A stretch of 64,000 bases of DNA, taken from Clavelina lepadiformis (taxonomy: Eukaryota > Chordata > Ascidiacea > Aplousobranchia > Clavelinidae). The notes under the pieces were generated by a model, which ran no database searches, was not told where the DNA came from, and saw only the letters and a program-made list of their open reading frames with translations. Shown piece by piece: positions 2,521-51,073 of this stretch (positions within the stretch are counted from its first letter, which is position 1; each line of letters begins with the position of its first letter). A program made the translations under genes and the position numbers. The stretch spans positions 875,501-939,500 of the forward strand of contig NC_135245.1 of assembly GCF_947623445.1 (NCBI RefSeq), written 5' to 3'.

Positions 2521-2820
2521 TACAAATTGCGTGACACTGGTACAAGCTCGGAAAACGGGGCTCGCTTAAGTTGTGCAAAGACTTTTCTCATTCCGAGGAC
2601 AACATTATCAACATCTATGCATACACCCCTCCCTCTCTGCTACAACCAGACACTCAACTGTTTATCACTCCCCGATTTCTTGCTCAGGAAGCTCATTTCA
2701 GAATGTGTCCGACACACCATGTTGCCGCCGTCTTAGCGACAATGTAGATGCAGATAACGCAGTGAGTAGTTCGGAAGTAGTTGTGATTTCGGAAAGGTCA
2801 CAATCGACTAGATAGTAAAG

Positions 2821-4900
2821 AATAAGTATATAAAGTTATCGCTACATATCAGAAGTGAATGGTATCCAACATTATTTGATATTCTAGCCGATATTCAACA
2901 CATCCTTAGCTGTATGTATAGCACGTAGCATATGTATATATATGCTACAGCAGTAAGTCATGTAGATGATGTTTAATGATGATGACGTAGTGCTGCGGCT
3001 GAAACGCTTTCCACGATCGACGGAAAAATGTGTCACAGATCGGAACATATTGAAAATAAATGAAACCATTACATATGTATTTTGATGCTTAACTGGTAGT
3101 TTAACTGGCCAGTATGCTATATGCTGTTTGAAGTAACAGGACAAGCGTTGATAAAACCAGTCAAAATAAAACAGCGCGCTACTTTAGCCTCTATACCGCT
3201 AGACTTTTGCCTTATTGACTTTGGTAAAAAGTGTTGTCGTAAAACTTTATGTCAAGTCGCTTTATGCTACTTATTTGAAGGTTAAGGTTACTTTGTGGCC
3301 GACTGCTGGTAGCTGTCAGCAATTAAGTAATAGCGAAGGAAAAGTGTGTCGCATACTGGAATATATTGAAGATACAATAAATGAAACTATAGTGATACCA
3401 CATGTGCATTTACATGTTTAACTGCATAGACAGTGCTGTCTCCTGATGTGAGTGACGTTGATGATTTAGTAAACAAGTGATGTATAAATGGTAGAAATGA
3501 AACAGATCGCTATGGTTGACGCCTTCCTTCTACTTTCGTCTCAATGACTTTGGTAAATTGATGTCGCCGAAGAATTTTATCTCAATTTTCTTTAAGCTAC
3601 TTATGTAAAAGTCAACGGAAATTTAAGTCTTTATGGCATAGCAATCAGCAACAACGTGTAAATGCTTCTTTTTTATCGGCGGTAGAGGTTGGAATTGGTC
3701 GTTAGTTCTTGAAAACTTTAACTTATGTCTCCTTGTGTTGACATTTGTACATGAGCATAAGTAATCATCGTTGAAAGTGTAGGTGAGTGGACAAGGTTTT
3801 ATACATTCTCATGTTTTAAAGATATTTCGTAAGCGAAAAAGTTATTTAAATTCAGATACTTAATCATGTTCACTTCAAATACTTCATATATTCACCTATA
3901 TCAATAAACGATTTCGAGAAAGTTATCACCAACATTTTGCTTTGTATAAAGATTTGCTTAAACCAGCTTGTACTTAAGCGTGGTCAGATGGCCTACATAG
4001 GCCTATAAATATATAGCTTTTTTCTTATTTGTACCATATCTTACTGGGAAATCAGGTAAATAAATATACACAGTGGCTTAAATGCGGGCCAGCATGATGC
4101 ACTAGATTTAGTTAATTGTATAATTAAAGGTAGCAGAGTTGTATTTACAACATTTCTTGCCTAGTCTTAAAGTTTAAATGTGAAATCATTTGTTTATGTT
4201 CAAAAAGTATACAAGCAGAGCATGCAGCCTAAAACAACTTAAAAGTTTCGTTATTTAGGTGCACCTTTGGCAGCAGTAGCGTTTATAGCGAATGTATAAA
4301 TAACGTAAATTTGCAAGTGTAGCAGCCTGCTTGAAGCTATTTCCTATTCTTTTTTTTTTTGCTGCTTTTAACCACCCTAAAAAGACATCCTGTGAGGTAC
4401 GAATTTACTGCAAGTGCGATTAATCTTTTAGTTTTGTGGAAGCGGTCTTCTAAGCAGTAACGCTGTTCTCAGGAGACGTTTTCGTGTATTTACAGTCCAT
4501 TGCAGAAAAATTGAAAAGTGGACCCTATTGTTCGTCACCAAAGCTTGGAATACGATGATCAAACATGCCATGAACCTTGTAACAAATGAATATTTTTGAG
4601 TTTTTTCTTGGTAGTGACAATGATGTTAAAATATCTTGGTTTTATTATGACAGAATTTCGTGACTGCAATGAAACTTGCCCGCATTGTCCAGTAGGTGAA
4701 TTATAAAACTTAGTGCAACTTACATTTTGTGATGTTTAGTTTTACAGTACTTTGGAGGTAATAATTAATTAAAAACCAGTAAAATTTCCTAAAGAAATTA
4801 GTAAACTTTATTTTCAATTTATAGTAAAAAATTACAATCATTACATATGAAGTTGCTGCCAGTAATCTTCAGGCAAGTTTTACAAAATTGTTTTTAACAG
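2821..4900. other. Intergenic part of the left arm
   Basis: No convincing gene is seen between the junction block and the second exon of GGT-A. The matching stretch in the other arm is about 13921-15890, and a third partial copy lies at about 22200-22520. The similarity is nucleotide-level with no shared open frame, so it is read as duplicated flank and possible promoter DNA for the GGT copies. Confidence 0.6.
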
Positions 4901-7900
4901 TGTACATCGTAACTTCCAACTCAAAGCGGTTCACAGTCCTGAAACATTTCCAGCTACAGAAACATTTGATAATGCGGCTGTGGCAGCGGACGCGGGCAAT
5001 TGTTCCGAGATTGGAAAACAAATTCTCATGAAAGGGGGTTCAGTGGTCGACGCCGCAATAGCTGCCATGCTTTGTGTTGGAGTTTGTAATTCACAAAGGT
5101 TATTTTGTGTCTATGAATTTTGTCATGACAGCTGACCAACTTACAGTGAAAATAATTCAAGCTATCTTTTTCTGGCAATATTAGATCTCGGCAAACTTTC
5201 GCCATAGAAACATTATAAACGTTACAGCTGTGGAATCGGTGGGGGTGTTTTGATGACAATCTACAACGCCACAACAGGAAATGCCACGGTCATTGATGCC
5301 ATTGATGTGGCGCCAATCCTTGCATCACGTGATATGTATGGAAAAGATCAATCGCTTACAGAATTAGGTACCGTAAAGCGTCGTCGTGTATTTAAATCGG
5401 CGACGTCATTAAATCTACTTAGTGTGCAAAAACTTCCACTTTAGTAAAAAGCTTTAAGTCTTTAAATGGATATGAAATTTTATTGTAAAAACGATTACTA
5501 TGTATATTATACTACAAAATACTAATTCTGAAACGAAATGTGGTTTTAAGCAACTTAAATTGCAGGAACACTTGCTGTTGCTGTGCCCGGTCAAATTGCA
5601 GGATTTTGGGACGCTCATCAAAGATTCGGGAAATTGCTTTGGAAAGATCTCTTTGAACCAAGTATTAAGATTGCAGAGGAAGGTTATGTTGTGGGGAGTG
5701 CTCACGCTGCAGCCATCGCTTTGACAGCTCCTAATATGTTGGACCGGGATCTCAATTTGTGGTGGGTTGAACAGTGACCTAATTCAGTTCGAGATAGATA
5801 TCCTATAACCTTAAACTACACTCGAAAATGCGAACATAAGAAAAATAGAAAGAAATGAGAATTAAGAACAAAATTCCTTGTTTATTTTCTCTCTTTTTTT
5901 TGTTACAAGTTGTATCTTTTTTGGAACTTTTGACAAAATACTGAGTATTATCTGATCTAGAACCAGTCATTTTATATCCAGGCCTGTATTTACCAACCTT
6001 GACGGTAGCTTGAAAAAGGCGGGAGATACGATCAGGCGACCCCAGCTAGCGGCCACTTTACGAACAATCGCCGATAAAGGAGCTGACGTATTTTATCGAG
6101 GATCTCTCGCATCTGACATTGTTGCTGATTTGCGCGATGGTTATGTGTTAAAGCTGGGTGGAGAGAGCATTATGACGGAGACTGATCTCGACAATTACAG
6201 GTATTGGCCCACAGAGATTAGGAAGATCTGTCAACCAAATCATTTCGCCGTTTCTCAAGTGGTATTTATTCGTTTGTTATAAGCCTTTATGATGCCATAA
6301 AAGTACTTAGCATACAAATGCATTCTTTGCATTTGACCTTTTTTACCATAAACATTTACATTTGATTCCAATCGCTAAAAATCTTTTGCCTGGCTTCAAA
6401 AACTTGATAAAACTTTCGTAAGCTGATCGATTAGGTCATTATATCCTACACCAAACATCCTCGAACATCGTACCAGTTACACGTGTAATATGCATTTGTA
6501 CCACAATTTTGTGCATAAATTATGTGCATTTGATTTCATCACCTAATTATGAGCACCGCCTGCTTCAATGATTTGAAGAAACTTTTGAAGAAAGCTAATT
6601 ACGTCATACGTATTAGGACGAACGTAAAACCTGCGTTGAACGTGGCCGTTGGTGACTTCAGCCTCTTTGTCCCAGGACCGCCAGCCAGTGGATCAGTGCT
6701 GGCCCTTATTCTGAACATATTAGAAGGTAAGTGCATTAGCATTTGTGCTAAATGTCGCACGTTACGTCTACGGCTACGGTCACTGCTACTAATAGCATTG
6801 TTGATACTCATTTGATTTGGAAAAAGCTTTCACAACTTTTACAAGGTTACAATTTCACCCCAGAGGACATGAATGAAGACCGACAAATGCTGACCTATCA
6901 TCGCATTGTTGAAGCTTTTCGCTTCGCATACGCCAGGCGTTCGTGGTTGGGTGACGACCGGACCAACAAAAATATAAATGAGGTAAGAGAGGTAAGGTAA
7001 ATAAGAGATTGCTATGTGAAAAAGTTTTTCCATGAATATTAGCTTTCCGTAAGACTGTTTATGACATTGTAAGGTTGCAATAAACATGACTTCAAAGTTA
7101 TATGCTGAATCACTTCGCTTGAAAATCAACGACTCGTTCACTCAAGAGCCAGGATATTACGACGAACAATTCGTTCTCCCTGACGATCGAGGCACCTCCC
7201 ATCTGTGCGTTGTTGGACCGGGGGGACATGCAGTGTCAATGACCAGCTCATTAAATACGCGGTAAGTGTAGGCTTTTTGCTATTATTGTTTTGCTTTTTG
7301 TAATTTGCGTTGTTTTTTTATTGTTGCCAATTCTCTTGGCACGAAACTTGGGCTAATTGGGCTTGCCTAAGAGCACGAAACGAAGTAACCCGTAATTTGA
7401 TTCCATAAATTGGCAATAAGTAAAACCACCGTCCACTACCTTCAATTTTACTTCATCCAGCTTCGGGAGCAAAGTTCGTGGTCGAAGAACTGGAATCATT
7501 TTCAACAACGACATGAACGACTTTTCATTGCCAGACTGGCCCAATCGCCACGGTATGTGCTTAAAAGTATGATTAAAGTTTACATTTGTAATTTTAAATT
7601 TTGCTTATTTCAACGTCGTATAACAAGTTGTGAAAACAACAGGGCTACCTGAATCTCCATCGAATTACATTGTCCCGGGTAATCGGCCATTTTCAAGCAT
7701 GTGCCCATCCGTAATTACCCAGACGGATCCACAAACAGGCAAGAGAAAATTGAAAATGGTTCTAGGCGTTGCCGGTGGCCCCAAGATCACTACAACGACA
7801 GCCATGGTAGGACATAAAGTATCTGTAAAGATAAACTGAAACAAGGTCAAAGATGAAAACCGTTAAAACAAATCAAGCCCATAAGTATTTTCTACTTTCG

Positions 7901-8397
7901 TGGTTAATAACGTGAAGGTCAACAAAGGTTATGCGTAACCTGTAGATTGTTGACCCCTACAACAGATGATAAGTTTCCCCGTTGTTCGCTAATTATAACA
8001 AACAGGTCATTATCAGGTAACATCTTATCATTGTTTCAGATAATTTTGAACTCGTTATTTTTCGGTGATGACGTTGGTACCAGCGTTGCTAAGAAACGCA
8101 TTCACTACCAAGTTGCTGGCCCAGTCAAGGTTGAAAACGGGTTTGACAAGGCAAGTTGCCGTTATCGATGATCGCGTTTATGATAGAATGGGCTTTGTTA
8201 ATTTTCCTGACTGACCATGAGTTATTTACCAAGTGTTGGTTAAATAGGAAGTTGTTGATGGATTGATACAAAAAGGACACGATATAGAAGTGGAAAAAGG
8301 TTTTTTTTCCCATGTCCAGGCCATTCTCGCCAACGATGATGGAACGTTGAGTGCCACATGCGATTCCCGAAAAGGGGGACGTCCCTTTGGATTTTAG
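4901..8397 (+). CDS. GGT: Gamma-glutamyltransferase-like, GGT-A (5' exon not found)
   Basis: GGT enzymes cleave the gamma-glutamyl bond of glutathione outside the cell. Eleven exons join in phase: 4901-5098, 5228-5367, 5566-5761, 5982-6200, 6617-6726, 6846-6982, 7074-7261, 7461-7552, 7643-7806, 8040-8150 and 8248-8397. They match the other copies in length and phase. Present are [20 protein letters not shown], the nucleophile context DDRGTSHL (Thr), [13 protein letters not shown] and [10 protein letters not shown]. The intron at 8151 uses a GC donor. Two key features are missing. The membrane-anchor part of the second exon seen in GGT-C is absent, and no first exon was found. In addition, the arginine of the family motif NAREVAP, which binds substrate carboxylate (human Arg107), is isoleucine (DAIDVAP). 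It may be a secreted or inactive paralog. The polyA signal lies near 8483. Confidence 0.85.
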
Positions 8398-8524
8398 TTG
8401 ATCTTCTTAAAATGAAATATGTTTAATAATGTTCCACAAGCATTCTTACTAGGATACAAATACAGACAGACTCATGATTGCAATAAAGCCAACTACTTTC
8501 AAACATTTGATAGCCAAAGCTAAA

Positions 8525-8840
8525 TCGGAGTTAGATGTGTTGAAACCAGTGTGAAATTTCAAGTAATTTTGGATATAAATCACTACTAATGTATAAAGAT
8601 AACTTTGCATACTTATTCTTTACTATCTAGTCGATTGTAACTTTTCCAAAATCACTCAATTCTCCAGAACTACTCACTGCGTTACCTCCATCTACATTGT
8701 CGCTAAGACGGCGGCAACATGGTGTGTCGGACACATTTTGAAATGAGCTTACTGAACAAGAAATGGGGGAGTGATAAACAGTTTAGTTTCTGCTTGTGGC
8801 AGAGAGGGAGGGTGTATGCATAGATGTTGATAACGACAAC
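8525..8840 (-). repeat. Junction block, middle copy
   Basis: About 315 bp here also occur at about 2600-2910 (inverted) and 15915-16235 (same orientation). On the minus strand the block reads as a Cys/Ser-rich tail containing VSDTPCCRRL. This copy has an in-frame TAA within that tail, whereas the right copy is open. It marks the edge where the NXPE-side block and the GGT-side block were joined during duplication. Confidence 0.7.
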
Positions 8841-9127
8841 ATCATCAACTTATTACGTAGCACACTTTGAAAGCGATTCACAGCAAGATTTCCCTGAACA
8901 TATTGAGCTTTCGTTTAATACATCTGATTTATTTCTAACCCAACACATGAAGACGTTAGCGAAGCTTTTGATTTTACCCATGCAGCATATAAAGTAAATC
9001 GGGCACCAATGCTTCACTTGGACTTGGTATGGTGATACTCTTGGTTCTCGGAATGAGGAAAGTCTTTGCACGACTTAAGCAAGCCCTGGTTTCCGAGCTT
9101 GTACCAGTGTCACGCAATTTTTATTTT

Positions 9128-9323
9128 GATTTTGTTATTTTTATAGAGTATTGCCCGATTTTAGAATTGTTCACCAGGTCCAGTGAGCAAGAGAACATGT
9201 AATTAACGCTTTGCCCAAGTGCATTACAACGGTATGGCACCACTGGGTATCGGACACGGAACACGAGCTGCGTTCAGTGCGAGGTCTGCGGTTGAACCAC
9301 TCGCTACCGAGCCGACATTTGTT
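9128..9323 (-). repeat. tRNA-derived SINE, copy 2
   Basis: This is the inverted partner of the SINE at 2339-2520, with the same A-box and B-box region read on the minus strand. It lies at the same place relative to the NXPE copy, so it was carried along with the duplication. The tail is T-rich on the plus strand. Confidence 0.6.
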
Positions 9324-9539
9324 GCAAACGTCTTTTAGTTTTCATAGATACTGTTTTATGAATATGAACAACAATTAATTATTAACGAGAAGTTGGGCAA
9401 AACGTAATGATCAAACAATTTCTAGTGTGACGTCATAAAGTCTTTTACGTTTATATCACCTCATAATGTTATATATAGTCATGGTTACGCTTTTAATGTA
9501 CGTCGAGTCATGTTTTCGTAAATATGTCGTTAATCGTCA

Positions 9540-10228
9540 TCATTTCGGACATAGAAACGAAAGGAAAAGCTGCAGTTTGTTCCTGACCACGTGCCCCTGG
9601 GTGTGGAGTCCATTTGGGGTCGAGTGATGTGAGGCTGACATGTCCCAGGCGTCCAAGTAAACTACCCCCTGCGTGTCCCCGATCATTCGACGCGCTATGC
9701 TGTCCAGCCTATAAGCGAGCCAGTCGAACAGACAGCACTGGTTCGATCCAAGCTCGTCCATCTTGTACACGTTGAAGCCTTTGAAAAAGATTTGAGTGCT
9801 CGGTGCCCGGTCCAGGAGCCGGCGCATCGCGCGAAGAATCCCTCTCAGTCTGGTTATAAACACGGTTGGGTGATACAGGAGCAGGTGGGGTCCTATCGTC
9901 ACTACCACAGCCGTCCCAGCCCCCCCCCTTTCACCCCATCAAGTCTATCAGCGATATATGGCATCGTGTACGGGGAACCCCCATTTTGAAGCGGAGGCCC
10001 ATGCGCGGAAAAGTGAAATGTGATGTCGTTGATCGGGTCCGTTGCCTGGCGGGGTTCCCACAGATTTGTCACAGGGCCCTTTTCCGAAATCGTGACCCCA
10101 GGGTTGAGCCCCAAGAAACTACGAAGCCCCGACTTAAGCTTTGGTATCAACGAGGAGAGGCCGAGGGGTACGTAATAAAATTACCATTGTCGAATCGTCG
10201 GTCCCAAATCGACGAGAAAGTAGATTGT
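9540..10228 (-). pseudogene. NXPE pseudogene (inverted copy)
   Basis: This is a reversed, near-identical copy of the NXPE exon, starting inside the GDST block and ending at the same stop. Three things break it. It lacks the first 50 or so codons of the exon. A G run in the middle is nine long rather than seven, which shifts the frame. The codon after CGACAATGG reads TAA where the intact copy has TAC. The C-terminal part from VVVTIGPHLLLYHP onward is still open. It abuts the 3' end of GGT-B at about 10235. It is a duplicate that has lost function, unless a short C-terminal product is made. Confidence 0.85.
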
Positions 10229-10396
10229 ATTGTCCAATGTTCTACATTTGTTTCTGATTCAAACGTCTCTCCAATAAAACACGAAAATATTTTGAAACTG
10301 TTTAGCTTTATTGCATTCATGTGTCAGCCTGTATTTGTATCCTATTAAGAATGCTTGTGGAACATTATTAAACATATTTCATTTTAAGAAGATCAA

Positions 10397-13300
10397 CTAA
10401 AATCCAGAGGGACGTCCCCCTTTTCGGGAATCACATGCGGCGCTCAACGTTCCATCCTCGTTGGCGAGAATGGCCTGGACAATGGAGAACAAAGATTTTT
10501 CCACTTCTATATCGTGTCCTTTTTGTATCAATCCATCAACAACTTCCTATTTAACCAACACTTGGTAAATAACTCATGGTCAGTCAGGAAAATGAACAAA
10601 GCCCATCCTATCATAAACGCGATCATCGATAACGGCAACTTGCCTTGTCAAACCCGTTTTCAACCTTGACTGGGCCAGCAACTTGGTAGTGAATGCGTTT
10701 CTTAGCAACGCTGGTACCAACGTCATCACCGAAAAATAGTGAGTTCAAAATTATCTGAAACAATGATAAGATGTTACCTGATAATGACCTGTTTGTTATA
10801 ATTAGCGAACAAAGCGGAAACTGATCACCTGTTGTAGGGGTCAGCAATCTGTGGATTACGCATAACCTTTGTTGACCGTCACATGACCACGAAAGTAGAA
10901 AAACATTCAGAAAATACTTATGGGCTTGATTTGTTTTAACGGTTTTCAGCTTTTACCTTGTTTCAGTTTATCTTGGCAGGTACTTTATGTCTTACCATGG
11001 CTGTCGTTGTTGTGATCTTGGGGCCACCGGCAACGCCTAGAACCATTTTCAATTTTCTCTTGCCTGTTTGCGGATCGGTCTGGGTAATTACGGATGGGCA
11101 CATGCTTGAAAATGGCCGATTACCCGGGACAATGTAATTCGATGGAGATTCCGCGAGTTCTGTTATTTTCACATCTTGTTATACGGCGTTGAAATAAGCA
11201 AAATTTAAAACTACAAATGTAAACTTAAATGTATACTTTTAAGCACATACCGTGGCGACTTGGCATACCCGGCAATGAAAAGTCGTTCATGTTATTGTTG
11301 AAAATGATTCCAGTTCTTCGACCACGAACTTTGCTCCCGAAACTACTTAAAATAAGTGGGTGGTGGACGGTGGTTTTATTTATTGCCAATTTATGGAATC
11401 AAATTACGGGTTACTTTGTTTCGTGCTCTTAGCCAAGCTAAACGTAGCAAAGCTTCGTGCCAACAGAGATGACAACAATAACAAAATAATGCAAATTACA
11501 AAAAGCAAAATAATAATAGCAAAACTCCAACACTTACCGCGTATTTAATGAGCTGGTCATTGACACTGCATGCCCCCCCGGTCCAACAACACACAGATGG
11601 GAGGTGCCTTGATCGTCAGGGAGAACAAATTGTTCGTCGTAATATCCTGGCTCTTGAGTGAACGAGTCGTTGATTTTCAAGCGAAGTGATTCAGCATACA
11701 ACTTCGACGTCATGTTTATTGCAACCTAACAATGGCATAAACGGTCTCACGGAAAGCTAATATTTATGGAAAAACTTTTTTACATAACAGTCTCTATTAC
11801 CTCAGTTATATTTTTGTTGGTCCGGTCATCACCCAACCACGAACGCCTGGCGTATGCGAAGCGAAAGGCTTCGATCATGCGATGATAGGTCAGCATTTGT
11901 CGTTCTTCATTCATGTCCTCTGGGGTGAAATTGTAACCTTGTAAAAGTTGTGAAAGCTTTTTCCAAATCAAATGAGTAGCAACAATGCTATTAGTAGCAG
12001 TGACCGTAGCCGTAGCCGTAGCCGTAGCGTGTGACATTTAGCACTAATGTGTTTTTCACATACCATCTAATATGTTCAGAATAAGGGCCAGCACTGATCC
12101 ACTGGCTGGTGGTCCTGGAACAAAGAGGGTGAAGTCACCAACGGCCACGTTCAACGCAGGTTTTACGTTCGTCCTAATACGGATGACGTAAATAACTTTC
12201 TTTAAAAGTTTTTTCAAATCATTAAAGCAGGCGGTGCTCATAATTAGGTGATGAAATCAAATGCACATAATTTATGCACAAAATTGTGGTACAAATGCAT
12301 ATTGCACGTGTAACTGGTACGATGTTCGAGGATGTTTGGTGTTTGGTATGATGACCTAATCGATCAGCTTACGAAAGTTTTATCAAGTTATTGAAGCCAG
12401 GCAAAAGATTTTTAGCGATTGGAATCAAATGTAAATGTTTATGTTAAATAACGTCAAATGATCAGAATGCATTTGTATGCTAAGTACTTTTATGGCATCG
12501 TAAAGGCATTCATAAAGGCTTATAACAAACGAATAAATACCACTTGAGAAACGGCGAAATGATTTGGTTGACAGATCTTCCTAATCTCTGTGGGCCAATA
12601 CCTGTAATTGTCGAGATCAGTCTCCGTCATAATGCTCTCTCCACCCGGCTTTAACACATAACCATCGCGCAAATCAGCAACAATGTCAGATGCGAGAGAT
12701 CCTCGATAAAATACGTCAGCTCCTTTATCGGCGATTGTTCGTAAAGTGGCCGCTAGCTGGGGTCGCCTGATCGTATCTCCCGCCTTTTTCAAGCTACCGT
12801 CAAGGTTGGTAAATACAGGCCTGGATATAAAATGACTGGTTCTAGATCAGATAATTCTCAGTATTTTGTCAAAAGTTCCAAAAAAGATACAACTTGTAAC
12901 AAAAAAAAGAGAGAAAATAAACAAGGAATTTTGTTCTTAATTCTCATTTCTTTCTATTTTTCTTTCTTCGCATTTTCGAGTGTAGTTTAAGGTTATATGA
13001 TATCTATCTCGAACTGACTTCGGTTACATCTCAACCCACCATAAATTGAGATCCCGGTCCAACATATTAGGAGCTGTCAAAGCGATGCCTCTAGCATGAG
13101 CAGTTCCCACGACATAACCTTCCTCTGCAATCTTAATGCTTGGTTCAAAGAGATCTTTCCAAGGCAATTTCCCGAATCTTTGATGAGCTTCCCAAAATCC
13201 TGCAATTTGACCGGGCACAGCAACAGCAAGTGTTCCTGCAATTTAAGTTGTTTAAAACCACATTTCGATTCAGATTTAGTATTTTGTAGTATAATATACA

Positions 13301-13920
13301 GAGTAATCGTTTTTTACGATAAAATTTTCATATCCATTTAAGGGCTTAAAGCTTGTTGCGAAAGTGGAAGTTTTTGCACACTAAGTAGATTTAATGACGT
13401 CGCCGATTTAATTACACGACGACGCTTTACGGTACCTAATTCTGTAAGCGATTGATCTTTTCCGTACATATCACGTGATGCAAGGTTTGGCGCCATATCA
13501 ATGGCATCAATTACCGTGGCTCTTCCCGTTGTGGCGTTGTAGATTGTCATCAAAACACCCCCACCGATTCCACAGCTGTAACGTTTATAACATTTCTATG
13601 GCGAAAGTTTGCCGAGCTCTAATATTGCCAGAAAAACAAAGCTTGCTATATTTTCACTGTCAGTTGGTCAGTTGTCATGAAAAAATTCATAGACACAAGA
13701 TAACCTTTGTGAATTGTAAACTCCAACACAAAGCATGGCAGCGATTGCGGCGTCGACCACTGAACCCCCTTTCATGAGAATTTGTTTTCCAATCTCGGAA
13801 CAATTACCCGCGTCCGCTGCCACAGCCGCGTTATCAAATGTTTCTGTAGCTGGAAATGTTTCTGTAGCAGGAAATGTTTCAGGACTGTGAACCGCTTTGA
13901 GTTGGAAGTTACGGTGTACA
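10397..13920 (-). CDS. GGT: Gamma-glutamyltransferase-like, GGT-B (5' exon not found)
   Basis: This is the inverted twin of GGT-A. Exons, in transcript order, are 13705-13920, 13436-13575, 13040-13235, 12602-12820, 12064-12173, 11801-11937, 11538-11725, 11251-11342, 10996-11159, 10644-10754 and 10397-10546. Lengths match GGT-A exactly, except that the first is 18 bp longer because the PATETF codons are repeated. All joins keep phase and I see no premature stop. The nucleophile context is DDQGTSHL. Like GGT-A it lacks the membrane anchor and has isoleucine in place of the substrate-binding arginine (DAIDMAP). It shares the GC-AG intron (10547-10643). The exon 9 acceptor changed from CAG to TAG. 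Convergent to GGT-A. AATAAA lies near 10306 on the minus strand. Confidence 0.85.
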
Positions 13921-15890
13921 CTGTTAAAAACAATTTTGTAAAACTTGCCTGCAGATTACTGGCAGCAACTTCATATGCAATGATTGTAATTTTTTACTAT
14001 AAATTGAAAATAAAATTTACTAATTTATTTAGGAAATTTTACTGGTTTTTAAGTAATTATTACCTCTAAAGTACTGTAAAACTAAACACCACAAAATGTA
14101 AGTTGCACTAAGTTTTATAATTCACCTACTGGACAATGCGGGCAAGTTTCATTGCAGTCACGAAATTCTGTCATAATAAAACCAAGATATTTTAACAACA
14201 TTGACACTACCAAGAAAAAACTCAAAAATATTCATTTGTTACAAGGTTCGTGGCATGTTTGATCATCGTATTCCAAGCTTTGTGACGAACAATAAGATCC
14301 ACTTTCCAATTCTTCTGCAATGGACGTGTAAATTCACGGAAATGGCTCCTGAGAACAGCGTTACTGCTTAGAAGACCGCTTCCACAAAACTAAAAGTTTA
14401 ATCGCAATTGCAGTAAATTGGTACCTTACAGGATGTCCTTTCCGGATGGTTAAAAGCAGCAAAAGAAAAGAATGGGAAATAGCTTCAAGCAGGCTGCTAC
14501 ACTTGCAACTTTACGCTATTTATACATTCGCTATAAACGCTACTGCTGCCAAAGGTGCACCTAAATAACGAAACTTTTAAGTTGTTTTAGGCTGCATGCT
14601 CTGCTTGTAGACTTTTTGAACATAAACAAAAGATTTCACATTTGAACTTTAACACTGGGCAAGAAATGTTGTAAATACAACTCTGCTACATTTAATTATA
14701 CAATTAACTAAATCTTGAGCATCATGCTGGCCCCCATTTAAGCCACTGTGTATATTTATTTACCTGACTTCCCAGTAAGATATGGTACAAATAAGAAAAA
14801 AGCTATATATTTATAGGCCTATATAGGCCATCTGGCCACGCTTAAGTACAAGCTGGTTTAAGCAAATCTTTATACAATGCAAAATGTTGGTGATAACTTT
14901 CTCGAAATCGTTTATTGATATAGGTGAATATATGAAGTATATGAAGTGAACATGATTAAGTATCTGAATTTAAACAACTTTAACGCTTACGAAATATCTT
15001 TAAAACATGAGAATGTATAAAACTTTGTCCACTCACCTACACTTTCAACGATGATTACTTATGCTCATGTACAAATGTCAACACAAGGAGACATAAGTTA
15101 AAGTTTTCTAGAAATAACGACCAATTCCAACCTCTGCCGCCGATAAAAAAGAAGCATTTACACGTTGCCATAAAGACTTAAATTTGCGTTGACTTTTACA
15201 TAAGTAGCTTAAAGAAAATTGAGATAAATTTCATCGGCGACATCAATTTACCAAAGTCATTGAGACGAAAGTAGAAAGAAGGCGTCAACCATAGCGATCT
15301 ATTTCATTTCTACCACTTATGCATCACTTATGCATCATACATCACCTGTTTACTAAATCATCTTCACTCATATCACATCGGTAGACAGTTCTGGCTAAGC
15401 AATTAAGCATGAACATGCACATGTAGTATCACAATAGTTTCATTTATTGTATCTTCAATAATTTCCGATTTGTGACACATCTTTCCTTCGGTATTACTTA
15501 ATTGCTGACAGCTACCAGCAGTCAGCAACAAAGTAACCTTAACCTTCACATAAGTAGCATGAAACGACTTGACTTAAAATTTTCGACAAAACTATTTACC
15601 AAAGTCAATACGACAAAAGTCTAGCGGTATAGAAGCTAAAGTAGCGCGCTGTTTCATTTTGACTAGTTATATCACCGCTTGTCTTGCTACTTCAAACAGT
15701 ATAGCATACTGGCCGGTTAAACTACCAGTTAAGCATCAAAATACACATTTAGTGGTTTCATTTATCTTCAATAATTTCCTGTTTGTGACACATTTTTCCG
15801 TCGATCACGGAAAAGTGTTACAGACACAACACTATGTCATCAACATTAAACATCATCTACATGAGGTACTGCTGTAGCATATATATACCT
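13921..15890. other. Intergenic part of the right arm
   Basis: This is duplicated flank upstream of GGT-B, matching about 2910-4900 in inverted orientation. No coding exon is recognised. Confidence 0.6.
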
Positions 15891-15914
15891 ATGCTACGTG
15901 CTATATATATAGCT

Positions 15915-16265
15915 AAGGATGTGTTGAAACCCGGCTGGAATATAAAGTAATTTTGGACACAATTCACTACTAATATGTAGCGATAACTTTGCATACTTTT
16001 TCTTTACTATCTAGTCGATTGTAACTTTTCCAAAATCACTCAATTCTCCAGAACTACTCACTGTTTTACCTGAATCTACATTCTCGCTAAGACGGCGGCA
16101 ACATGGTGTGTCGGACACATTTTGAAATGAGCTTACTGAACAAGAAATGGGGGAGTGATAAACAGTTGTGTTTCTGCTTGTGGCAGAGAGGGAGGGTGTA
16201 TGCATAGATGTTGATAACGACAACATCATCAACTTATAAAGACCCCTCAACTTCACCGAAAACAA
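15915..16265 (-). repeat. Junction block, right copy, with open reading frame
   Basis: On the minus strand an open frame from 16265 to 16011 encodes about 84 residues with a Ser/Thr-rich stretch, then VSDTPCCRRLSENVD and an end in GKVTID. The same frame is partly kept in the two other copies, although the middle copy has a stop and the left copy changes frame near its end. It could be the last exon of an unrecognised gene that was duplicated with the block. I do not recognise the protein. Confidence 0.45.
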
Positions 16266-17856: not shown

Positions 17857-20800
17857 CTAAAATCCGGAGGGATATCCCCCTTTTCGAGAATCGCATGCGG
17901 CGCTCAACCGACCATCCTTGTCAACTAGAATGGCTTGGACGACAGCAAAGATACCCTCGTCCACTTCTACCTCGTGTCCTTTCATTTCTAATCCATCAAC
18001 GATTTCCTGTTTAACCAACACTTTGAAGATAACACTTGGTCAATTTTACCCCATATTTTAAGGGATTTCATAGCAGCAACTTGCCTTGTCAAACCCGGTT
18101 TCAACCTTGACTGGCTCGCCCAATTGGTAGTGAATACGTTTCTTAGCAACGCTGGTACCAACGTCATCACCGAAAAATAATGAGTTCATAATTACCTGAA
18201 ACAATTATAAAGTGTTACCTGATAATGACCTGTCTGTCACAATTACCCGATAAAGGAAAATTTAACGCCCGTTGCATGGGGTCAGCAAATGGTAGGTTAA
18301 ATGTTATTTATGTGATCCTTTACCTTCATAGGTTCAATGAAAAATAGAATAACGTTCAGAAAAGACTTATACCGACTTCACTGTGTTAGCATAAATTTAA
18401 GCTCTTACCAAAGCTGTCGTTGTTGTGATCTTGGGACCACCGGCGGCGCCTGCAACCATTTTCAACTCTCTCTTGCCAGTTTGCGGATCCGTCTGGGTAA
18501 TTACGGACGGACACATGCTTGAAAATGGCCGATTACCCGGGACAATGTAATTCGATGGAGATTCCGGCAGCCCTGTTGTTTTAATATCCTGTAACACTAC
18601 GTTGAAATATGCAAAATTAAAATTAATTATAAAACAGAACGGGACCTTTTAAAGCTTACCAAAGTAATTTGGCCTGGCTTAGATGCCTGGCTGGTTGGCT
18701 TATACGACGTTGAAATAAGCAAAAATTAGAACTACAAATGTAGACTTAAATGTATGCTTTTAAGCATATACCGTGGCGACTTTGCAAACCCGGCAATGAA
18801 AAGTCGTTCATGTCATTGTTGAAAATGATTCCAGTTCTTCGACCACGAACTTTGCTCCCGAAACTGGTTAAAATAAAATGATGGTGGTGGACGGTGGTTT
18901 TACTTATGTGACTAGGAGTGTTACGTGTTACTTTGAGTGCGATGTTACTTATTGCCAACATATAAAATTCATTAAATTACGTGTTAACTTGTTTCGTGCA
19001 CTCAGCCAAGCTAAAAATAACAAAGAAGAAAAACAATAACAGTCAACACATACTGTGCATTTATTGAGCTGGTCATTGACACTGCATGTCCCCCCGGTCC
19101 AACAACACACAGATGGGAGGTGCCTCGATCGTCAGAGAGGACAAACTGTTCGTCATAATATCCTGGCTCTTGAGTGAACGAGTCGTTGATTTTCAAACGA
19201 AGTGATTCAGCATATAACTTTGACGTCATGTTTATTGCAATCTAACAATGGCATGAAAGCTATTAATGCGTTAATTGTGTGGTATTCACTCTAAACGAAT
19301 TTGGTATCTTTGCTGCTAATTGGGATTGATTGATTGACAAAAAGATAAATTTCATTGCAGCAATAGCACTGTATGATATCTTGCTTGGTTTAAATCTTCT
19401 ACCTCTGTTATAGTTTTGTTGGTCCGGTCGTCGCCCAACCACGAACGTCTGACGTATGCGAAGTGGAAGGCTTCGACAAATCGATGATAGGTCAGGATTT
19501 TTTGTTCGGGCTTCATATCATTTCGGGAAAAATTATAACCTGGTAAAAGTTGTGAAAGCTTATTCCCAATCACGTCAGTAGCAATATTGCTATCAGTAGC
19601 CGTAGCGGTGACGTGTGACATTTAGCACTAATGCTAATGCACTTACCTTCTAATATGTTCAAAATAAGCGCAAGTACTGATCCACTGGCTGGTGGTCCTG
19701 GGGCAAAGAGGCTGAAGTCACCAACAGTCACGTTCAACGCAGGTTTTACGTTTGTCCTAGTACGTATGACGTAAATAGCTTTGTTTAAAAGTTTTTTCAA
19801 ATCATTGCAGCAAGCTATGCTCATAATTAGGTGATGAAATCAAATGCACAAAATTGTAATACGAATGCATATTGCACATGTAGCTGAAGTTTCTAGCAGC
19901 CATAAAGCCTTCACTTAACCTTGTAGCTTACTGCATACCAAATCAATAAAAACAATTTAAAAAATATCAACACAAGTTTGTTTGCAAAAGTGCAGTGTTC
20001 CAGCTCCAAATTGAAACGTGACGTATACAGGAATAATATAAAAAAAGGTGAGTTGTGTCGGGCACTAAAAAGCTCCGGGCTCCGTAAATGGGGCACTAGC
20101 TACCCCCCCGTTGTTGCCTCTCTGTTGGCCAATACCTGTAATTGTCGAGATCAGTCTCCGTCATAATGCTCTCTCCACCCGGCTTTAACACATAACCATC
20201 GCGTAAATCAGCAACAATGTCAGATGCGAGAGATCCTCGATAAAATACGTCAGCTCCTTTATCGGCGATTGTTCGTAAAGTGGCCGCTAGTTGGGGTCGC
20301 CTGATCGTGTCTCCTGCCTTTTTCAAGCTACCGTCAAGATTGGTAAATACAGGCCTGGATATAAAATGACCTACTGTTGACCAGGTATATCAAAGATGCC
20401 TCATTAAAAGTGCAGCAAGCAACTGGTTAGAAATGAAAGAAGACAAATAATAAAGAAAGAAGACAGATGATAATTATAGCTTTGCAAAGTCACTCCAGTA
20501 TAGACAAAAATTTTCCATTAAATTTGGAAATGTTTTATATTTTATTGAATTAGGTAAATTTTAAAGTGGAGTTGACACTTAATCATAAAAATGGAATTAG
20601 CAAATTAGTTTACATGATATCTATCTCTAACTGTATTAGGTTACATCTGTACTCACCACAAATTGAGATCCCGGTCTAAAACATTAGGAGCTATCAAAGC
20701 GATGGCTTCAGCGTGAGCGGTTCCCACAACATAACCTTTCTCTGCAATCTTAATGCTTGGTTCAAAGAGATCTTTCCAAGGCAATTTTCCGAATCTTTGA

Positions 20801-21974
20801 TGAGCTTCCCAAAATCCTGCAATTTGACCGGGCACAGCGACGGCAAGTGTTCCTGCAATTTAAGTTGTTTAAAACCACATTTCGATTCATACTTAGTATT
20901 TTGTAGTACAACATACAATTTTTTTACGATAAAAAGTCATTTTTAGCAATTTTTATATTTATTTAATTTATTTACTTATATCTATTTAAACACTTAAAGC
21001 TTTATCCTCGAAAAAAGTTTCTTTGGATACATGTAATAGATTTATAGCTTTTTAACTTTACTCTGTATAGATACCTATTTCTGAAAGCAACTCCTCTTTT
21101 CCGTACATGTCACGTGATGCAAGATTTGGCGCCACATCCCTGGCGTCTATAATCGTGGCTGTTCCTGTTGTGGCGTTGTAGATTGTCATAAAAAATCCTC
21201 CACCCAGCCCACAGCTGTGATATTTATATTAATTTCATGGTGAAAATTTTCCGCGCTTTATTATATATAAGCTTATATATATATACAGCCATAAAGAAGA
21301 GGGAGAAAGTTTAACCATTCTCTTCGCTAATTTATGAAAACAACCGAAATTAAAGAAAACGCAAAAATTCATAGACATAAAATAACCTGTGTGAATTGTA
21401 AACTCCAACACAAAGCATGGCAGCGATTGCGGCGTCGACCACCGAACCACCTTTCATGAGAATTTGTTTTCCAATCTCGGAACAATTACCCGCGTCCGCT
21501 GCCACGGCCGCATTATCAAATGTTTCTGTAGCTGGAAATGTTTCAGGACCGTTTCCAGATTTGAGACTGAAGAGCTGACCGTAGTACAAGACCACGCAAA
21601 GCAATGCAGCCAATGCAAACACAACCCAAAATATTTTCTGTATAAAATCGAATAATTGTTAATTTTACAAATGCGTTCTGTTAAAATACCAAGTATCAGG
21701 GTCACGGGAAGGTGCAGTTCTAATAAAAACTTTAATTCAAAGACGATAAATCGTTGCTATAATTGTAAGTTCGTAAATTCTAAACAGTACGTTGTTGTAA
21801 ATAGCAATTAGCATCTGATGTTATGTTACAAAATGAAAATGTCTGGGATGATGGTTTTATCATTGTACACCGAAGAACAAATATACGATATTTTTATTCA
21901 CTTACTTCCAACGATTTTACCTGACGCCTCATACCGCGGTGTTGTTTTTCGGATAAAATTGACATCTCAACCAT
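17857..21974 (-). CDS. GGT: Gamma-glutamyltransferase, membrane-anchored, GGT-C
   Basis: Twelve exons give a complete 608-residue frame: 21906-21974, 21387-21637, 21075-21214, 20657-20852, 20136-20354, 19647-19756, 19403-19539, 19054-19241, 18772-18863, 18409-18572, 18085-18195 and 17857-18006. Exon 1 encodes a basic cytosolic tail starting [13 protein letters not shown] and ends at a GTAAGT donor. Exon 2 begins with the type II anchor [19 protein letters not shown]. The substrate arginine is present (DARDVAP). The catalytic threonine, in DDRGTSHL, is near residue 415, and SSMCPS and [10 protein letters not shown] follow. The length fits human GGT1 (569) with a longer tail. A GC donor is used for the last intron (18007-18084). 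The polyA signal is near 17750. It should be an active cell-surface enzyme acting on extracellular glutathione. Confidence 0.9.
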
Positions 21975-30185: not shown

Positions 30186-34169
<3,984 letters not shown>

Positions 34170-44909: not shown

Positions 44910-46497
44910 ATGGAAAAAGACACTGGTCCGCCGTCAGCTGAAAAACGAAGAATTTGTTGGAACGCGCGTGATAATTATTTACAGTGTATCCAAGATCATA
45001 CGTTGCCCGAAGAACAAGAAAGTAACTGCGCAAAATTGAAAGAAGAGTTTGACAATTCTTGCCCTAAAGCTTGGGTAAGTCTGGAATCAACATTTCCAAT
45101 CGTTGTCAATGTTTACCTTCAAGCTACTATTAATTTTTTGATTGATTTTGGTATTGACCAGTGGTTCTCAAACTTTTTCAAAAGAAAGTACGCAACAGTC
45201 TCCTAGCAATTTTGTGAATGTCTCACCGTCCCTTAAAAATCAACACAAAACAACACGTTGGTTTTTATGGTATCAATGTGACGGGTGTACCTGCTTCTTT
45301 GCAACCAGTTCAGCAATGTTTGGTTTCGTTTTGGACAACGCAACCTTATTATCGTGAATCACATTCAACCGGTTTCGAGCTTTTGCTTTGATGGCAAGAA
45401 GTGCCGTTTTTTTGGAAGGTGCTTCGCGGTCCTAGAAAATTGTCTCGCGGACCCCAGTTTGAGAACCACTGGTGTAGACTGATAGGTCGTACTCAATATT
45501 GCTTTTCATGAGCTTCAGTGTCGCACATAAGGTGCATTATTTTGAACTTAATAACTTCGACAGAACTTCTTTGCACTCAATTTTCAATTGAATTAAAGAT
45601 AATACAAGTCTAACTGCGTACATTACTGTGTAATTGTGCACTTCCATTGCGTCATTTTTGGTTGCTTGGTGCACCCAAGATCTTACTGAAAACGACCATA
45701 CTCTGCAGTCAGGGGCTATTGATGGTATGATATTGTCTTTATCCTTGGATAGAGGGAAGTCTTTGCTCGACCTAAACCGTGCTGTATATAAATGCATCAC
45801 TTCCAGATTTTTTTGTGCTTTACATTTTTGCCCGAGACCTTGACTGGAAAGTAGAAACCTTGCGTGCAAACACGCAGATTTTGGCATGTTAGCGTGCACT
45901 GAAGTGTCAACTCTTTGTTTATTTACTATAAATTGGCGTTTAAACAAATGTTGATTAGTTTCGTGTGTTCTGGTGCCACACTTTCCACTACGGCACTAGA
46001 CAAGAAACTTTCAGGTCTAGTATACAGAAAATAAAATGATTCATTCAATAAACTTAGAACAAAATACCCACATTAACAGCATGATAGTACGTAGTGATTA
46101 AACTGAAGGATAAACCTTTTTAAAATGGATCTAGTATTCAAGTGCACAGCCACAGGATGCCTTTCTATACCAGACTCCACTTATTCAAATTGTGACGTCA
46201 TCTGGTTGTGCACTTGTATACTAGACCCCAACTTTTAATTTAATATGTTTCCACTACTATGCTCATGGTGTGAAGGGTGGCTCAGGCTATATAAGCTTGC
46301 AAACAATTACTGATAATAATAATAATAAATCAGACTGAAAAGCGCTATCTTTATGTTTGTACTAAGCTTTGGTTGCAACTGTATGTCCATACAAGACATA
46401 ACCTTATTTCTTTATCCAGGTGAAACATTTCATTCGTCAAAAAGCTTGGCAAGATTACAAAAAGGAGGTTTATAAGAAAAGGGACGAAGAAAAGTAA
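44910..46497 (+). CDS. COA6: Cytochrome c oxidase assembly factor 6
   Basis: COA6 helps deliver copper to the Cu-A site of cytochrome oxidase in the mitochondrial intermembrane space. Two exons, 44910-45074 and 46420-46497, encode 80 residues. The fold's cysteine pairs are clear: Cys16 and Cys26 (a CX9C motif, CWNARDNYLQC), then Cys40 and Cys51 (CX10C, ending FDNSCPKAW). The second exon continues VKHFIRQKAWQDYKKE, as in human COA6. The length matches the family. The 1.3-kb intron is filled by a hAT-type element, a dispersed repeat and a small palindromic element. WDR54 starts only 56 bp after the stop on the same strand. Confidence 0.94.
45159..45471. mobile_element. Non-autonomous hAT-type element 4, in COA6 intron
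   Basis: Ends are CAGTGGTTCTCAAACTTTTT and cagtttgagaaccactg, nearly the same as element 1. The flanking 8-mers gtattgac and gtgtagac agree at six of eight positions, a decayed target duplication. The element is 313 bp and shares only its ends with element 1. Confidence 0.85.
45490..45850 (+). repeat. Dispersed repeat, copy 1 (COA6 intron)
   Basis: It shares long runs with 53880-54190 in the same orientation, such as attgcttttcatgagcttca, gacagaacttct, gtacattact and ggttgcttgg followed by gcaccca. No terminal repeats or coding frame were found. The family type is unknown. Confidence 0.75.
46127..46228. mobile_element. 102-bp palindromic element, copy 1
   Basis: The two ends form a 26-bp imperfect inverted repeat (ggatctagtattcaagtgca against gggtctagtatacaagtgca read from the other end). 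A second copy of the same length lies at 53709-53810, and a related longer one at 55744-55878. It is a very small MITE of unclear superfamily. Confidence 0.75.
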
Positions 46498-46553: not shown

Positions 46554-48766
46554 ATGTATGAAAAAGTTAAAAGTCATTTGTTGGAAGGAAGTGCGTCAAG
46601 CCTGTACAACAACCTTGATGTTTTCATTGAAGACAGTGAAAAAGGTGGAAATCATGCAATGTTGTGTAAATGGCTTACATACATGGGATTACATGACAAC
46701 AAATCCTTCAAGTTATACTAAACTACTAATTTCGCAATCATTATGCGCATTTGTGAATATGCAAAACTCATAACATGTAAATATATTTAGAAATTAGCGT
46801 TTCGAAGTTTGGTATCACTTGAAGTATTTGTTCATCCTTTGTTTTCATTCAAGTACCTAAGTGTGTAAGATATGTATAAATATTTTTCTTGTAAATCTAC
46901 TCCAAATGTGCACCTGTTTGCATTGTCTATACTCTGACCATTGAGTATTACATATCTGTCACATTGTTTATACAGATTTAAATGGGGGTTATGATAGAAT
47001 GTCGTTTGCGACTGTTTCAAAAACAAACGTGAGTCTTGTACATTATCATCGAAATGGAAAGATCACCACCTCACAGGTGACGGCTAAAAAAACCACATGT
47101 TCTGTGTTAATCGATGATTTTGAAAGAGAATCATCTTTGATTACTAGGTAACCAACACACAGTCAAAGAACTGCACAGCCCTGCAGGCACGATGGTGTAG
47201 CCTAGGACATCAAGACGTTCTGGTCGTAGCAAATTTTGAAGGATTTTTGGTACAAATTAAAGCCAAAATGTTAGAAATCCATCCCTATTTAGTTGATTAA
47301 CGAATGCAATTTTCCTTTTAAAGGTTTATGACAGCGATGGACAGTTAAAGTTATTTTGGTATTCCCCGTCAAGTGAAGAGAACTTAGCCGATGGCAAGTC
47401 TTACTGCAGGTCTGGTAGCTAGAGTGTCAGCATATTTTAACTGGAGTATAATAGTCATGGTTGATCAAGGAGCTTGTACGTTGCTTGATGAAACCAACGA
47501 CTAGTACGACTGACTTAGTGAGGAACTCAAACAAACAACTCTTATAAAAGAGCTCCTCTGTGTACCTCACAATAACATGAACACAAATATTTTAACATAG
47601 CAACAAAAAGATTGCACAGTGACACAAAGACAGTGACTGAGCCTGTTTTGTCCTGTTACAGAGCTATTACTTGCGTTAGTGGGAAATTCATCTGTGTCGG
47701 AAGGTTTGATGGCAAGGTTATGGTCATCACGGCAAACAAAAACACATTTTCTGTCTGTAAAACATTGCATGGCCACTCCACTCCAATAACTGCCACAGAT
47801 GGATTAAACAACGCAGATAATGGCGACAAGGTGATTCAATATCTATGTGAAAGAGTGCCAGTAATGGATTATAGCTTGGAAATGCAATGTTACGTAATTA
47901 CTCTAATTAGTTTAAACTTCAGTGTTGGCGGCTAATCCCAATATGTTGTTATATTTTTGCAAAGGTCGACTTCATAAGTGCTGATGACAGTGGGACAATC
48001 TGTACTTACAGAAGTAGTGATGAGTTTGAATTTGTCGCAATGATTCCGGGGTCAAGGTTAGTGGCCTTAAGATAAAACAACCGAACAACATAAATAACCT
48101 GAAGACAACATTTATTTTCAAAGTGTATTTTTTTAATATCACGCAGTGTGAAGCACTGTTTTCCAAATCAACAAACCACCGAATTGCACATCCATTTCAC
48201 ATTTTATTGCAGCGTCCCCTGCACCAGCATCAAACTCCTCTCCAATGGGCTGATAGCTGGTGGCTTTCTAACAGGGCACATTAGAATCTTCGACCCAGTT
48301 GAGGCGACAATGCTGAGTGAAATAACAGCTCACACGAGGGCAGTGTCATGTATGGATGCCACGATAGACAAAGAGGCCTCTTTGGTGAGTAGGCCATCTC
48401 ACTGCAAAGAGTTTGAGTGATTGAAAGTGTTTAATATCTCAATACTTGTCAAACAGCTGATTTGTGGAAGCGAAGACAGCTTCATAAGGGTGTGGAAAGT
48501 GACCAGAGATGATACGATTACGGTAAGTGACATTTTTCTTTTGGATTTGTTGGGCATTAAATCAGTACGTTGAACATGCCGACCATTTCATTTTAAAAAA
48601 CTGAAAAATGAATTCAAATAAAAATTTTTAGGTTACGCATGAGTGGTCTGCATCCATCCGTGACATTCAGATTTGTGGAGCCAAGTTTTGTGATCCACTT
48701 GGTCAAGCTTTCGCTGTTTCAGGCTACGACTCCAAAGAGATCATGCAATTTTCACGAGTCTATTAA
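46554..48766 (+). CDS. WDR54: WD repeat-containing protein 54
   Basis: WDR54 is a small beta-propeller scaffold. Exons in my reading: 46554-46644, 46976-47147, 47187-47249, 47325-about 47410, 47662-47830, 47965-48056, 48213-48384, 48457-48522 and 48632-48766. They line up along human WDR54: LLEGSASSLYNNLDVF at the start, ARWCSLGHQDVLVVANFEG, then GKFICVGRFDGKV, GHSTPIT, ISADDSGTICTYRS, GLIAGGFLTGHIRIFDP, AHTRAVSCMDA, LICGSEDSFIRVWKV and the family ending FCDPLGQAFAVSGYDSKEI. The ATG was chosen because it follows a splice acceptor by 3 bases. The first exon's donor is my best guess. The join between exons 2 and 3 is one base out of phase, so that junction is wrong, unusual, or hit by an indel. 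The polyA signal overlaps the stop (AATAAA near 48765). Confidence 0.88.
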
Positions 48767-48917: not shown

Positions 48918-49412
48918 TTAGTCATTCGTGCCCAGATTGGCACAACTTTGTGATGGAGTTTCACTTTTCTTGCTCAGATGCGCTTGATGCATGACCAGTT
49001 TCTTTCGAGTGTGGCAAGCGTACTCCAACTTGTAATTGGTGACAGAATCATCCATGTCAGTTGATTTTTCCTCTTTTATGCTCTCGTCTTCCAGGTCTTG
49101 AGGAGATTTGTCCTTAACTTTGAAAAAGACACAGGTCCCTGGAACTTCTTCCTTGGTTCCGACAAAGCATTTGTTATCCAACTGCATCACTGGATGCTCC
49201 TCGAACAATCCGATCAATTTCACTTTGTTCAAATCACACTCCGCCAATGCTTCTCTGCTTACCAGGCCGACCAACTCGACAAAAACATAATCCTCATCCA
49301 CCAATTCCCATTCGTCTGGGTCTAACTCTTTTGTTTCATCACAATCACTAGATTCCTTCGAAGTTTCAAATTCATCACTAGATTTCATTGTTACATCATC
49401 ATTCGATGCCAT
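48918..49412 (-). CDS. GTF3C6: General transcription factor 3C subunit 6
   Basis: This is a subunit of TFIIIC, which recruits RNA polymerase III to tRNA genes. It is a single exon of 164 codons. The conserved TFIIIC sub-6 core spans about residues 40-140: YVFVELVGLVSREAL, VKLIGLFEEHPVMQLDN, FVGTKEEVPGTCVFFKV and LEYACHTRKKLVMHQAHLS. The N-terminal 35 residues are acidic, as in human GTF3C6; the long acidic C-terminal tail of the human protein (213 residues) is absent. The start is the ATG at 49412, which lies 12 bases after a splice acceptor gttaatttcag (AG at 49425-49426), probably for spliced leader addition. The gene is convergent with WDR54, with only 151 bp between stops. Confidence 0.88.
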   Translation of the reverse strand: MASNDDVTMKSSDEFETSKESSDCDETKELDPDEWELVDEDYVFVELVGLVSREALAECDLNKVKLIGLFEEHPVMQLDNKCFVGTKEEVPGTCVFFKVKDKSPQDLEDESIKEEKSTDMDDSVTNYKLEYACHTRKKLVMHQAHLSKKSETPSQSCANLGTND

Positions 49413-49426
49413 CACAGAGTATAACT

Positions 49427-51043: not shown

Positions 51044-51073
51044 GTAAAATATTATTCTCCTAATAGAAATCAC

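Follow-up and report, generated by a model that had tools for sequence, protein, structure and literature searches.

The window analysed here, a stretch of 64,000 bases (C6:875501-939500) of a 209-Mb eukaryote assembly, carries four genes of the GGT family, GGT-A to GGT-D (Table 1). When the genome itself was searched with the profile PF01019, at least 33 stretches matched. The matches listed were the four genes in the window and one gene each on contigs C5, C1 and C55, the last being a more distant relative than the other GGT genes. Models of GGT-A, GGT-B, GGT-C and GGT-D, with 11 exons each, were obtained by spliced alignment to human GGT1. Several edges in GGT-A and GGT-B were set by hand. 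These were the junction of exons 4 and 5 in GGT-A and, in both genes, a GC-AG intron separating exon 10 from exon 11 (found likewise in GGT-C), the start of exon 1, placed at a candidate acceptor, and the end of exon 11, placed at the stop codon. For exon 1 of GGT-A two acceptors were possible, at 4901 or 4873.

Table 1. Features of the GGT locus; positions are those of the window, and motifs were located by six-frame scan.
Feature	Position	Strand	Remarks
GGT-A	4901..8397	+	11 coding exons of the core; spliced alignment, exon models, Pfam PF01019 (513.6 bits)
GGT-A exons 1-6	4901-5098, 5228-5367, 5566-5761, 5982-6200, 6617-6726, 6846-6982	+	
GGT-A exons 7-11	7074-7261, 7461-7552, 7643-7806, 8040-8150, 8248-8397	+	
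GGT-B	10397..13920	-	11 coding exons of the core (13920-13705 ... 10546-10397)
GGT-C	17857..21974	-	Paralog with Arg107 and membrane anchor (start exon 21974-21921, anchor from 21637)
GGT-D	30780..34169	+	Canonical paralog; identical to human GGT1 at the twelve pocket residues listed; anchor-like stretch about 30816-30896
A arm of inverted duplication	2605..8503	+	Partner 16217-10291, 91.8% identical
B arm of inverted duplication	10291..16217	-	
5' flank, 278 bases	3008..3285	+	Common to GGT-A, GGT-B and GGT-C (three matches listed in own genome)
Block upstream of GGT-A	3290..4900	+	92% identical to B counterpart; occupies the place of the GGT-C start and anchor exons
Candidate new first exon	4620..4695	+	One of several; frame fits acceptor 4873; counterpart in GGT-B; weakly hydrophobic
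GGT-A motif DAIDVAP	5295-5315	+	
GGT-B motif DAIDMAP	13508-13488	-	
GGT-C motif DARDVAP	from 21147	-	
GGT-D motif NSRETAP	from 31421	+	
GGT-A codon ATT (Ile)	5301-5303	+	Human Arg107 position
GGT-B codon ATT (Ile)	13502-13500	-	Human Arg107 position
GGT-C codon AGG (Arg)	21141-21139	-	Human Arg107 position

GGT-A scored 513.6 bits against a PF01019 cut-off of 27, and six of the six members of alignment A1 matched the profile. With NCBIfam TIGR00066, GGT-D (382.3) passed the cut-off of 357.85 and GGT-C (344.3), GGT-B (335.6) and GGT-A (332.2) stayed below it, a cut-off that is only a guide here because the library was built for bacteria and archaea. The small-subunit signature, in the form quoted in PMC6843540, was fitted by GGT-D and departed from by GGT-A, GGT-B and GGT-C (Cys385, His392 and Ser399; by eye). 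The preliminary description had stated that all reading frames were kept in GGT-A and GGT-B, and this held for the 11 shared exons. In the spliced models all 11 exons were open in each gene, with no stops, frameshifts or broken splice sites, and the splice sites were usable, being GT-AG throughout except for the GC-AG intron 10-11. The statement failed for the start exon and anchor coding of GGT-C, of which no homologous counterpart was found in GGT-A or GGT-B. Exon 1 of GGT-B contains an additional in-frame repeat of 18 bp (13880-13845) by which six residues (ETFPAT) are doubled immediately ahead of the conserved core; it was absent from GGT-A and GGT-C.

GGT-A and GGT-B are inverted duplicates with about 92% DNA identity and, by sequence comparison, derive recently from a GGT-C-like gene. 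In its layout the array resembles a tandem series of NXPE-GGT units in which one inversion has taken place. A gene with an NXPE4-like C-terminal domain was found in two copies, at 1265-2113 (+; PF24536, 184.8 bits) and at about 10235-9540 (-). The second copy, beside GGT-B, was without its first approximately 160 bp and needed two frames, and it looks broken. At the centre of the inverted repeat lies a 300-base stretch (2605-2904; 8534-8853; 15918-16237) that resembled the beginning of another unit.

The central claim of the preliminary description, that GGT-A and GGT-B are without the substrate-binding arginine of the family and that GGT-C and GGT-D keep it, was confirmed by the six-frame motif scan. 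Human GGT1 numbering was set on PDB chains and checked at nine residues, and the missing arginine corresponds to Arg107. Outside the window, the GGT on C5 reads DAREIAP and that on C1 reads FDFREVSS (by eye), with the arginine kept in both; the C55 model stops short of this column. Arg107 was present in 21 of 22 prokaryote loci, the remaining locus not covering the column, and this set leans to canonical GGTs because it was found with motif patterns from these proteins. Over the whole alignment, Arg107 was the sole arginine common to GGT-C and GGT-D that GGT-A or GGT-B had lost. The step from AGG (GGT-C) or AGA (GGT-D) to ATT requires two adjacent base changes. Because GGT-A and GGT-B are inverted duplicates with the same codon and the same flanks, R107I in the two genes is, as far as their sequences tell, one inherited event. 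Separate losses were ruled out by the shared codon and flanks. In GGT-A (5292-5307) the ATT codon creates a second 7-mer ATTGATG, the first copy lying 9 bases upstream, and GGT-B matches at six of the seven letters; we would guess that a single local copying mutation lies behind the Arg-to-Ile codon.

Inverted repeats are prone to misassembly and the two NXPE4-like copies differ in frame, both of which would suit an assembly or base-calling artefact such as a haplotype duplicated in error or a wrongly called codon. Nevertheless, such an artefact is extremely improbable, since the same double-base change stands in two oppositely oriented copies whose noncoding sites have diverged by 7.2%, and since GGT-A and GGT-B have sixteen other amino-acid changes in common relative to GGT-C and GGT-D.

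In the sections of PMC6949936 that we used, the glutamate is described as held in GGT by Arg107, Ser451, Ser452 and Asn401, with Glu420 as the partner of its amino group and Asp423 as the partner of Arg107. The catalytic threonine was said to be kept, and Thr381 was indeed present in GGT-A and GGT-B in the alignment to human GGT1. Compared with the human enzyme (PDB 4gdx and others), both genes also keep Asn401, Asp423, Ser451/452, the oxyanion glycines Gly473/474 and Lys562, but they differ by Arg107 to Ile, Thr399 to Ser, Tyr403 to Arg and Glu420 to Asp (GGT-A) or Asn (GGT-B), and no anchor was identified in them. GGT-D is identical to human GGT1 at positions 107, 108, 381, 385, 399, 401, 403, 420, 422, 423, 451 and 452, whereas GGT-C departs at 108, 385, 399, 403, 420 and 422. 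Beyond these changes of GGT-C, GGT-A has R107I and Arg403, and GGT-B has R107I, Arg403 and Asn420; position 420 is Asp in GGT-A and GGT-C, Asn in GGT-B and Glu in GGT-D. Read from these columns, alteration of the pocket was already under way in GGT-C before the changes of GGT-A and GGT-B.

By natural standards part of the pocket changes are mild, as judged from the aligned relatives. Ser399 occurred in 7 of the 22 prokaryote loci and Tyr403 in none, position 403 varying widely, and the C5 gene carries His403 and Ala422. Glu420 was found in 21 of the 22 loci. We take Gln430 of E. coli GGT to occupy the same position as human Glu420. Gln430 is listed in the binding pocket of the E. coli enzyme (PMC8062742, as far as covered), so Glu420 is not a strict feature of active GGT. 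Arginines were gained in both GGT-A and GGT-B at human positions 308, 403 and 565. None of them clearly takes the donor role of Arg107: as Tyr403 and Lys562 have been placed in the acceptor site (PMC6949936, same sections), Arg403, and Arg565 by its nearness in sequence, would point to the acceptor side.

Replacement of this arginine is already known in nature, since some extremophile GGTs carry Ser at the position, namely PtGGT (S68) and GtGGT (S85) (PMC8062742, in the part covered). GGT-A and GGT-B resemble them in the natural loss of the same arginine but have Ile instead of Ser, and they keep the Ser-Ser pair that GtGGT also replaces. Among the mutants in that part of PMC8062742, E. coli R114L had undetectable activity, and B. 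licheniformis R109L and R109M lost transpeptidation and retained 5% and 4% of hydrolysis, respectively. Leu, Met, Phe, Asp and Glu were the severe replacements, and Ile was absent from the portion of the mutant table covered. R109L and R109M are like GGT-A and GGT-B in placing an aliphatic or thioether residue at this position, but they were made in the laboratory from an enzyme that is canonical in other respects. B. licheniformis R109S kept 85%; with Lys, the effect ran from a two-fold gain in B. licheniformis through 93% in E. coli to a loss of 78% in B. subtilis (same source). The mildness of R109S, together with the Ser of extremophile GGTs, means that loss of the arginine alone is no proof of lost activity. 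Class IV cephalosporin acylases are, like GGT-A and GGT-B, GGT relatives with a changed donor site; their mark is Asn in place of Asp423 (PMC8062742, same part), whereas GGT-A and GGT-B keep Asp423. In grapevine, GGT candidates without key residues and a splice variant missing this arginine have been reported, for which the authors suspect mis-annotation (PMC6843540, in the portion used).

Between GGT-A and GGT-B, dS was 0.108 and dN 0.027, and divergence was 7.2% at noncoding sites and 4.3% in exons. Neutral evolution was simulated with noncoding rates, starting from the coding sequence of GGT-A itself. There were 29 amino-acid differences against 84.4 simulated (56-116), a single, in-frame indel against 9.05 expected, and no stops against about two expected per copy; both copies remained stop-free in 2% of runs. 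The coding changes comprised 40 synonymous and 34 nonsynonymous ones (constraint test, p 1.9e-7). Under codon models fitted to the tree ((A,B),C,D), omega was 0.24 for GGT-A and 0.37 for GGT-B, each below 1 (2dl 16.6 and 5.3). Constraint was weaker in the A/B clade including its stem, at 0.37 compared to 0.16 for GGT-C and GGT-D (2dl 10.9). Left free, the omega of the stem was 1.36, and 12 (the bound) when exons 1 and 4 were left out; neither value differed from 1. When one omega was fitted jointly to the A, B and C tips (0.27), the stem value of 0.54 did not differ from it (p 0.27). A burst of selection on the stem was thus rejected, its omega being distinguishable neither from 1 nor from the tips; GGT-D is saturated (dS near 2), so the division of changes between this stem and GGT-C is uncertain.

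The similarity to GGT-C was patchy. Fixed differences between the A/B pair and GGT-C amounted to 2.3% in exon 4, 1.1% in exon 8 and 20.4% in exon 11, and exons 4 and 8 were much closer to GGT-C than exons 2, 6 and 11. This pattern suggests gene conversion, which is likely between GGT-A/B and GGT-C, and conversion from a working GGT-C could feign constraint, weakening the selection signal. For the most divergent exons alone (2, 6 and 11), omega was about 0.59 and constraint was not significant (p 0.14). Where fixed difference reached 7% or more (seven exons), constraint was significant for both genes together (p 6.8e-5) and for GGT-A (0.0021) and GGT-B (0.011) alone. The statistics thus argue for purifying selection on both genes since they split. 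The view in the preliminary description of constraint rather than simple decay was upheld insofar as both copies have fewer amino-acid changes, indels and stops than neutral sequence; the constraint is weaker than in GGT-C and GGT-D, however, and has to be read beside the signs of conversion, the result for exons 2, 6 and 11 and the loss of the start and anchor exons.

DNA homology of GGT-A or GGT-B to GGT-C began only at about 21565 or 21544 of GGT-C. Neither DNA comparison nor a scan of the upstream region revealed a homolog of the GGT-C start exon or its anchor coding (21637 to about 21566). The anchor of GGT-C had a best 10-residue hydropathy of 3.15, and the anchor-like N-terminal stretch of GGT-D reached 2.63. 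Between the shared 5' flank and the core, GGT-A and GGT-B have about 1.6 kb that differ from GGT-C, parts of which are 77-79% identical to C4:15652862-15653571. A coding gene on C4 as donor of a new 5' end was rejected, the matching stretch being without a conserved frame (by eye). Scanning positions 2905-5100 and the B counterpart for start exons, with a splice-site profile from 40 introns, yielded 12 candidate start models for GGT-A and 16 for GGT-B, and 9 of the 12 had a GGT-B counterpart under a loose similarity test. The top 10-residue hydropathy among the candidates was 1.50, and no convincing anchor was present among the candidate first exons upstream of either gene. From these comparisons the membrane anchor seems to have been lost in GGT-A and GGT-B.

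The same loss could have killed the common ancestor, making GGT-A and GGT-B early pseudogenes whose frames stay open through youth and conversion from GGT-C. Start and anchor coding were not found, the similarity to GGT-C is patchy by exon, the A/B clade is less constrained than GGT-C and GGT-D, with no significant constraint in exons 2, 6 and 11, and the broken NXPE-like copy beside GGT-B indicates that the array does carry broken copies. We consider this rather unlikely, given that one in-frame indel stands where nine were expected, that neither copy contains a stop and both retain usable splice sites, and that constraint persists in the seven more divergent exons. With regard to a lost start or promoter, no counterpart of the GGT-C start exon was found, the 5' flank shared with GGT-C is retained and several candidate new starts exist.

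As judged from the sequence, GGT-A and GGT-B are probably crippled or repurposed enzymes and not simple gene wreckage. The reading we prefer, at a probability of about one half, is that they are donor-site-crippled, possibly intracellular GGT paralogs under residual selection. By their sequence both still encode a core GGT protein with the self-cleaving threonine, and they may still mature by autocleavage. The gamma-glutamyl donor site would be crippled, the arginine for the alpha-carboxylate having become Ile and the glutamate for the alpha-amino group Asp (GGT-A, as in GGT-C) or Asn (GGT-B). By analogy with the bacterial mutants, the proteins would have no useful transpeptidase activity, and their glutathione hydrolysis may not exceed a few per cent of the normal level. 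Their ancestor appears to have lost the start and anchor exons, as the missing homology suggests, so the genes are predicted to use a new first exon and to yield a protein without an anchor, which may be intracellular. Since purifying selection has acted on both copies after the split, some function at the protein level other than normal GGT catalysis is likely.

The preliminary description had proposed altered substrate choice or a pseudo-enzyme, which was supported in part; direct support for altered substrate choice was lacking, and the older pocket changes are shared with GGT-C. Ile107, Asp/Asn420, Arg403 and Arg565 might nevertheless suit a different acyl donor or acceptor, leaving active Ntn-hydrolases of new specificity. 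Retention of Thr381, Asn401, Asp423, Ser451/452 and Gly473/474 and the arginines gained in both copies at 308, 403 and 565 are compatible with this, as is the assignment of Tyr403 and Lys562 to the acceptor site (PMC6949936, as above). Altered specificity appears doubtful, however, because the A/B stem has no significant amino-acid excess (p 0.27), the pocket changes fit relaxed selection too, and position 403 varies widely among prokaryote GGTs. A further, speculative proposal, improbable as a whole, is that the anchor-exon rearrangement and the double-base change together turned a surface glutathione-degrading enzyme into an intracellular GGT-fold protein that no longer recognises gamma-glutamyl groups and whose acceptor side has been rebuilt and enriched in arginine (403, 565). 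Selection would now be keeping both copies, either as a pseudoenzyme of a new sort or as an Ntn-hydrolase of novel specificity.

For the preferred reading of donor-site-crippled paralogs, we are not aware that animal GGT pseudoenzymes with the catalytic threonine but without the substrate-binding arginine have been described as a class. A literature search of partial coverage, mostly titles and abstract openings, returned no animal GGT pseudoenzyme keeping the one and dropping the other. If translated, GGT-A and GGT-B would provide a natural test of which GGT function selection preserves, be it processing, hydrolysis, transfer or a non-catalytic role, and GGT-D, GGT-C, GGT-A and GGT-B would form a series of stepwise donor-site change within one gene cluster.

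Elsewhere in the window, we found COX6B (44910-45206, +), a WDR54-like gene (47612-48420, +) with a score under its cut-off, a TFIIIC subunit 6 domain (48918-49415, -) and PTPA (50063-51073, -) as one long open frame. Mitochondrial COX1 found no match in the assembly, which was also searched for a Ciona spliced-leader sequence followed by GT. With at most one mismatch, 857 + 705 occurrences were obtained (control 0). The leader of Ciona intestinalis in the part of PMC7986045 covered was identical to the query, which makes an ascidian source of the assembly very probable. Many of the places listed sit in tandem arrays with a 745-base unit, and one long tandem array extends at least over C6:12139467-12225578, with a spacing of mostly 745 bases.
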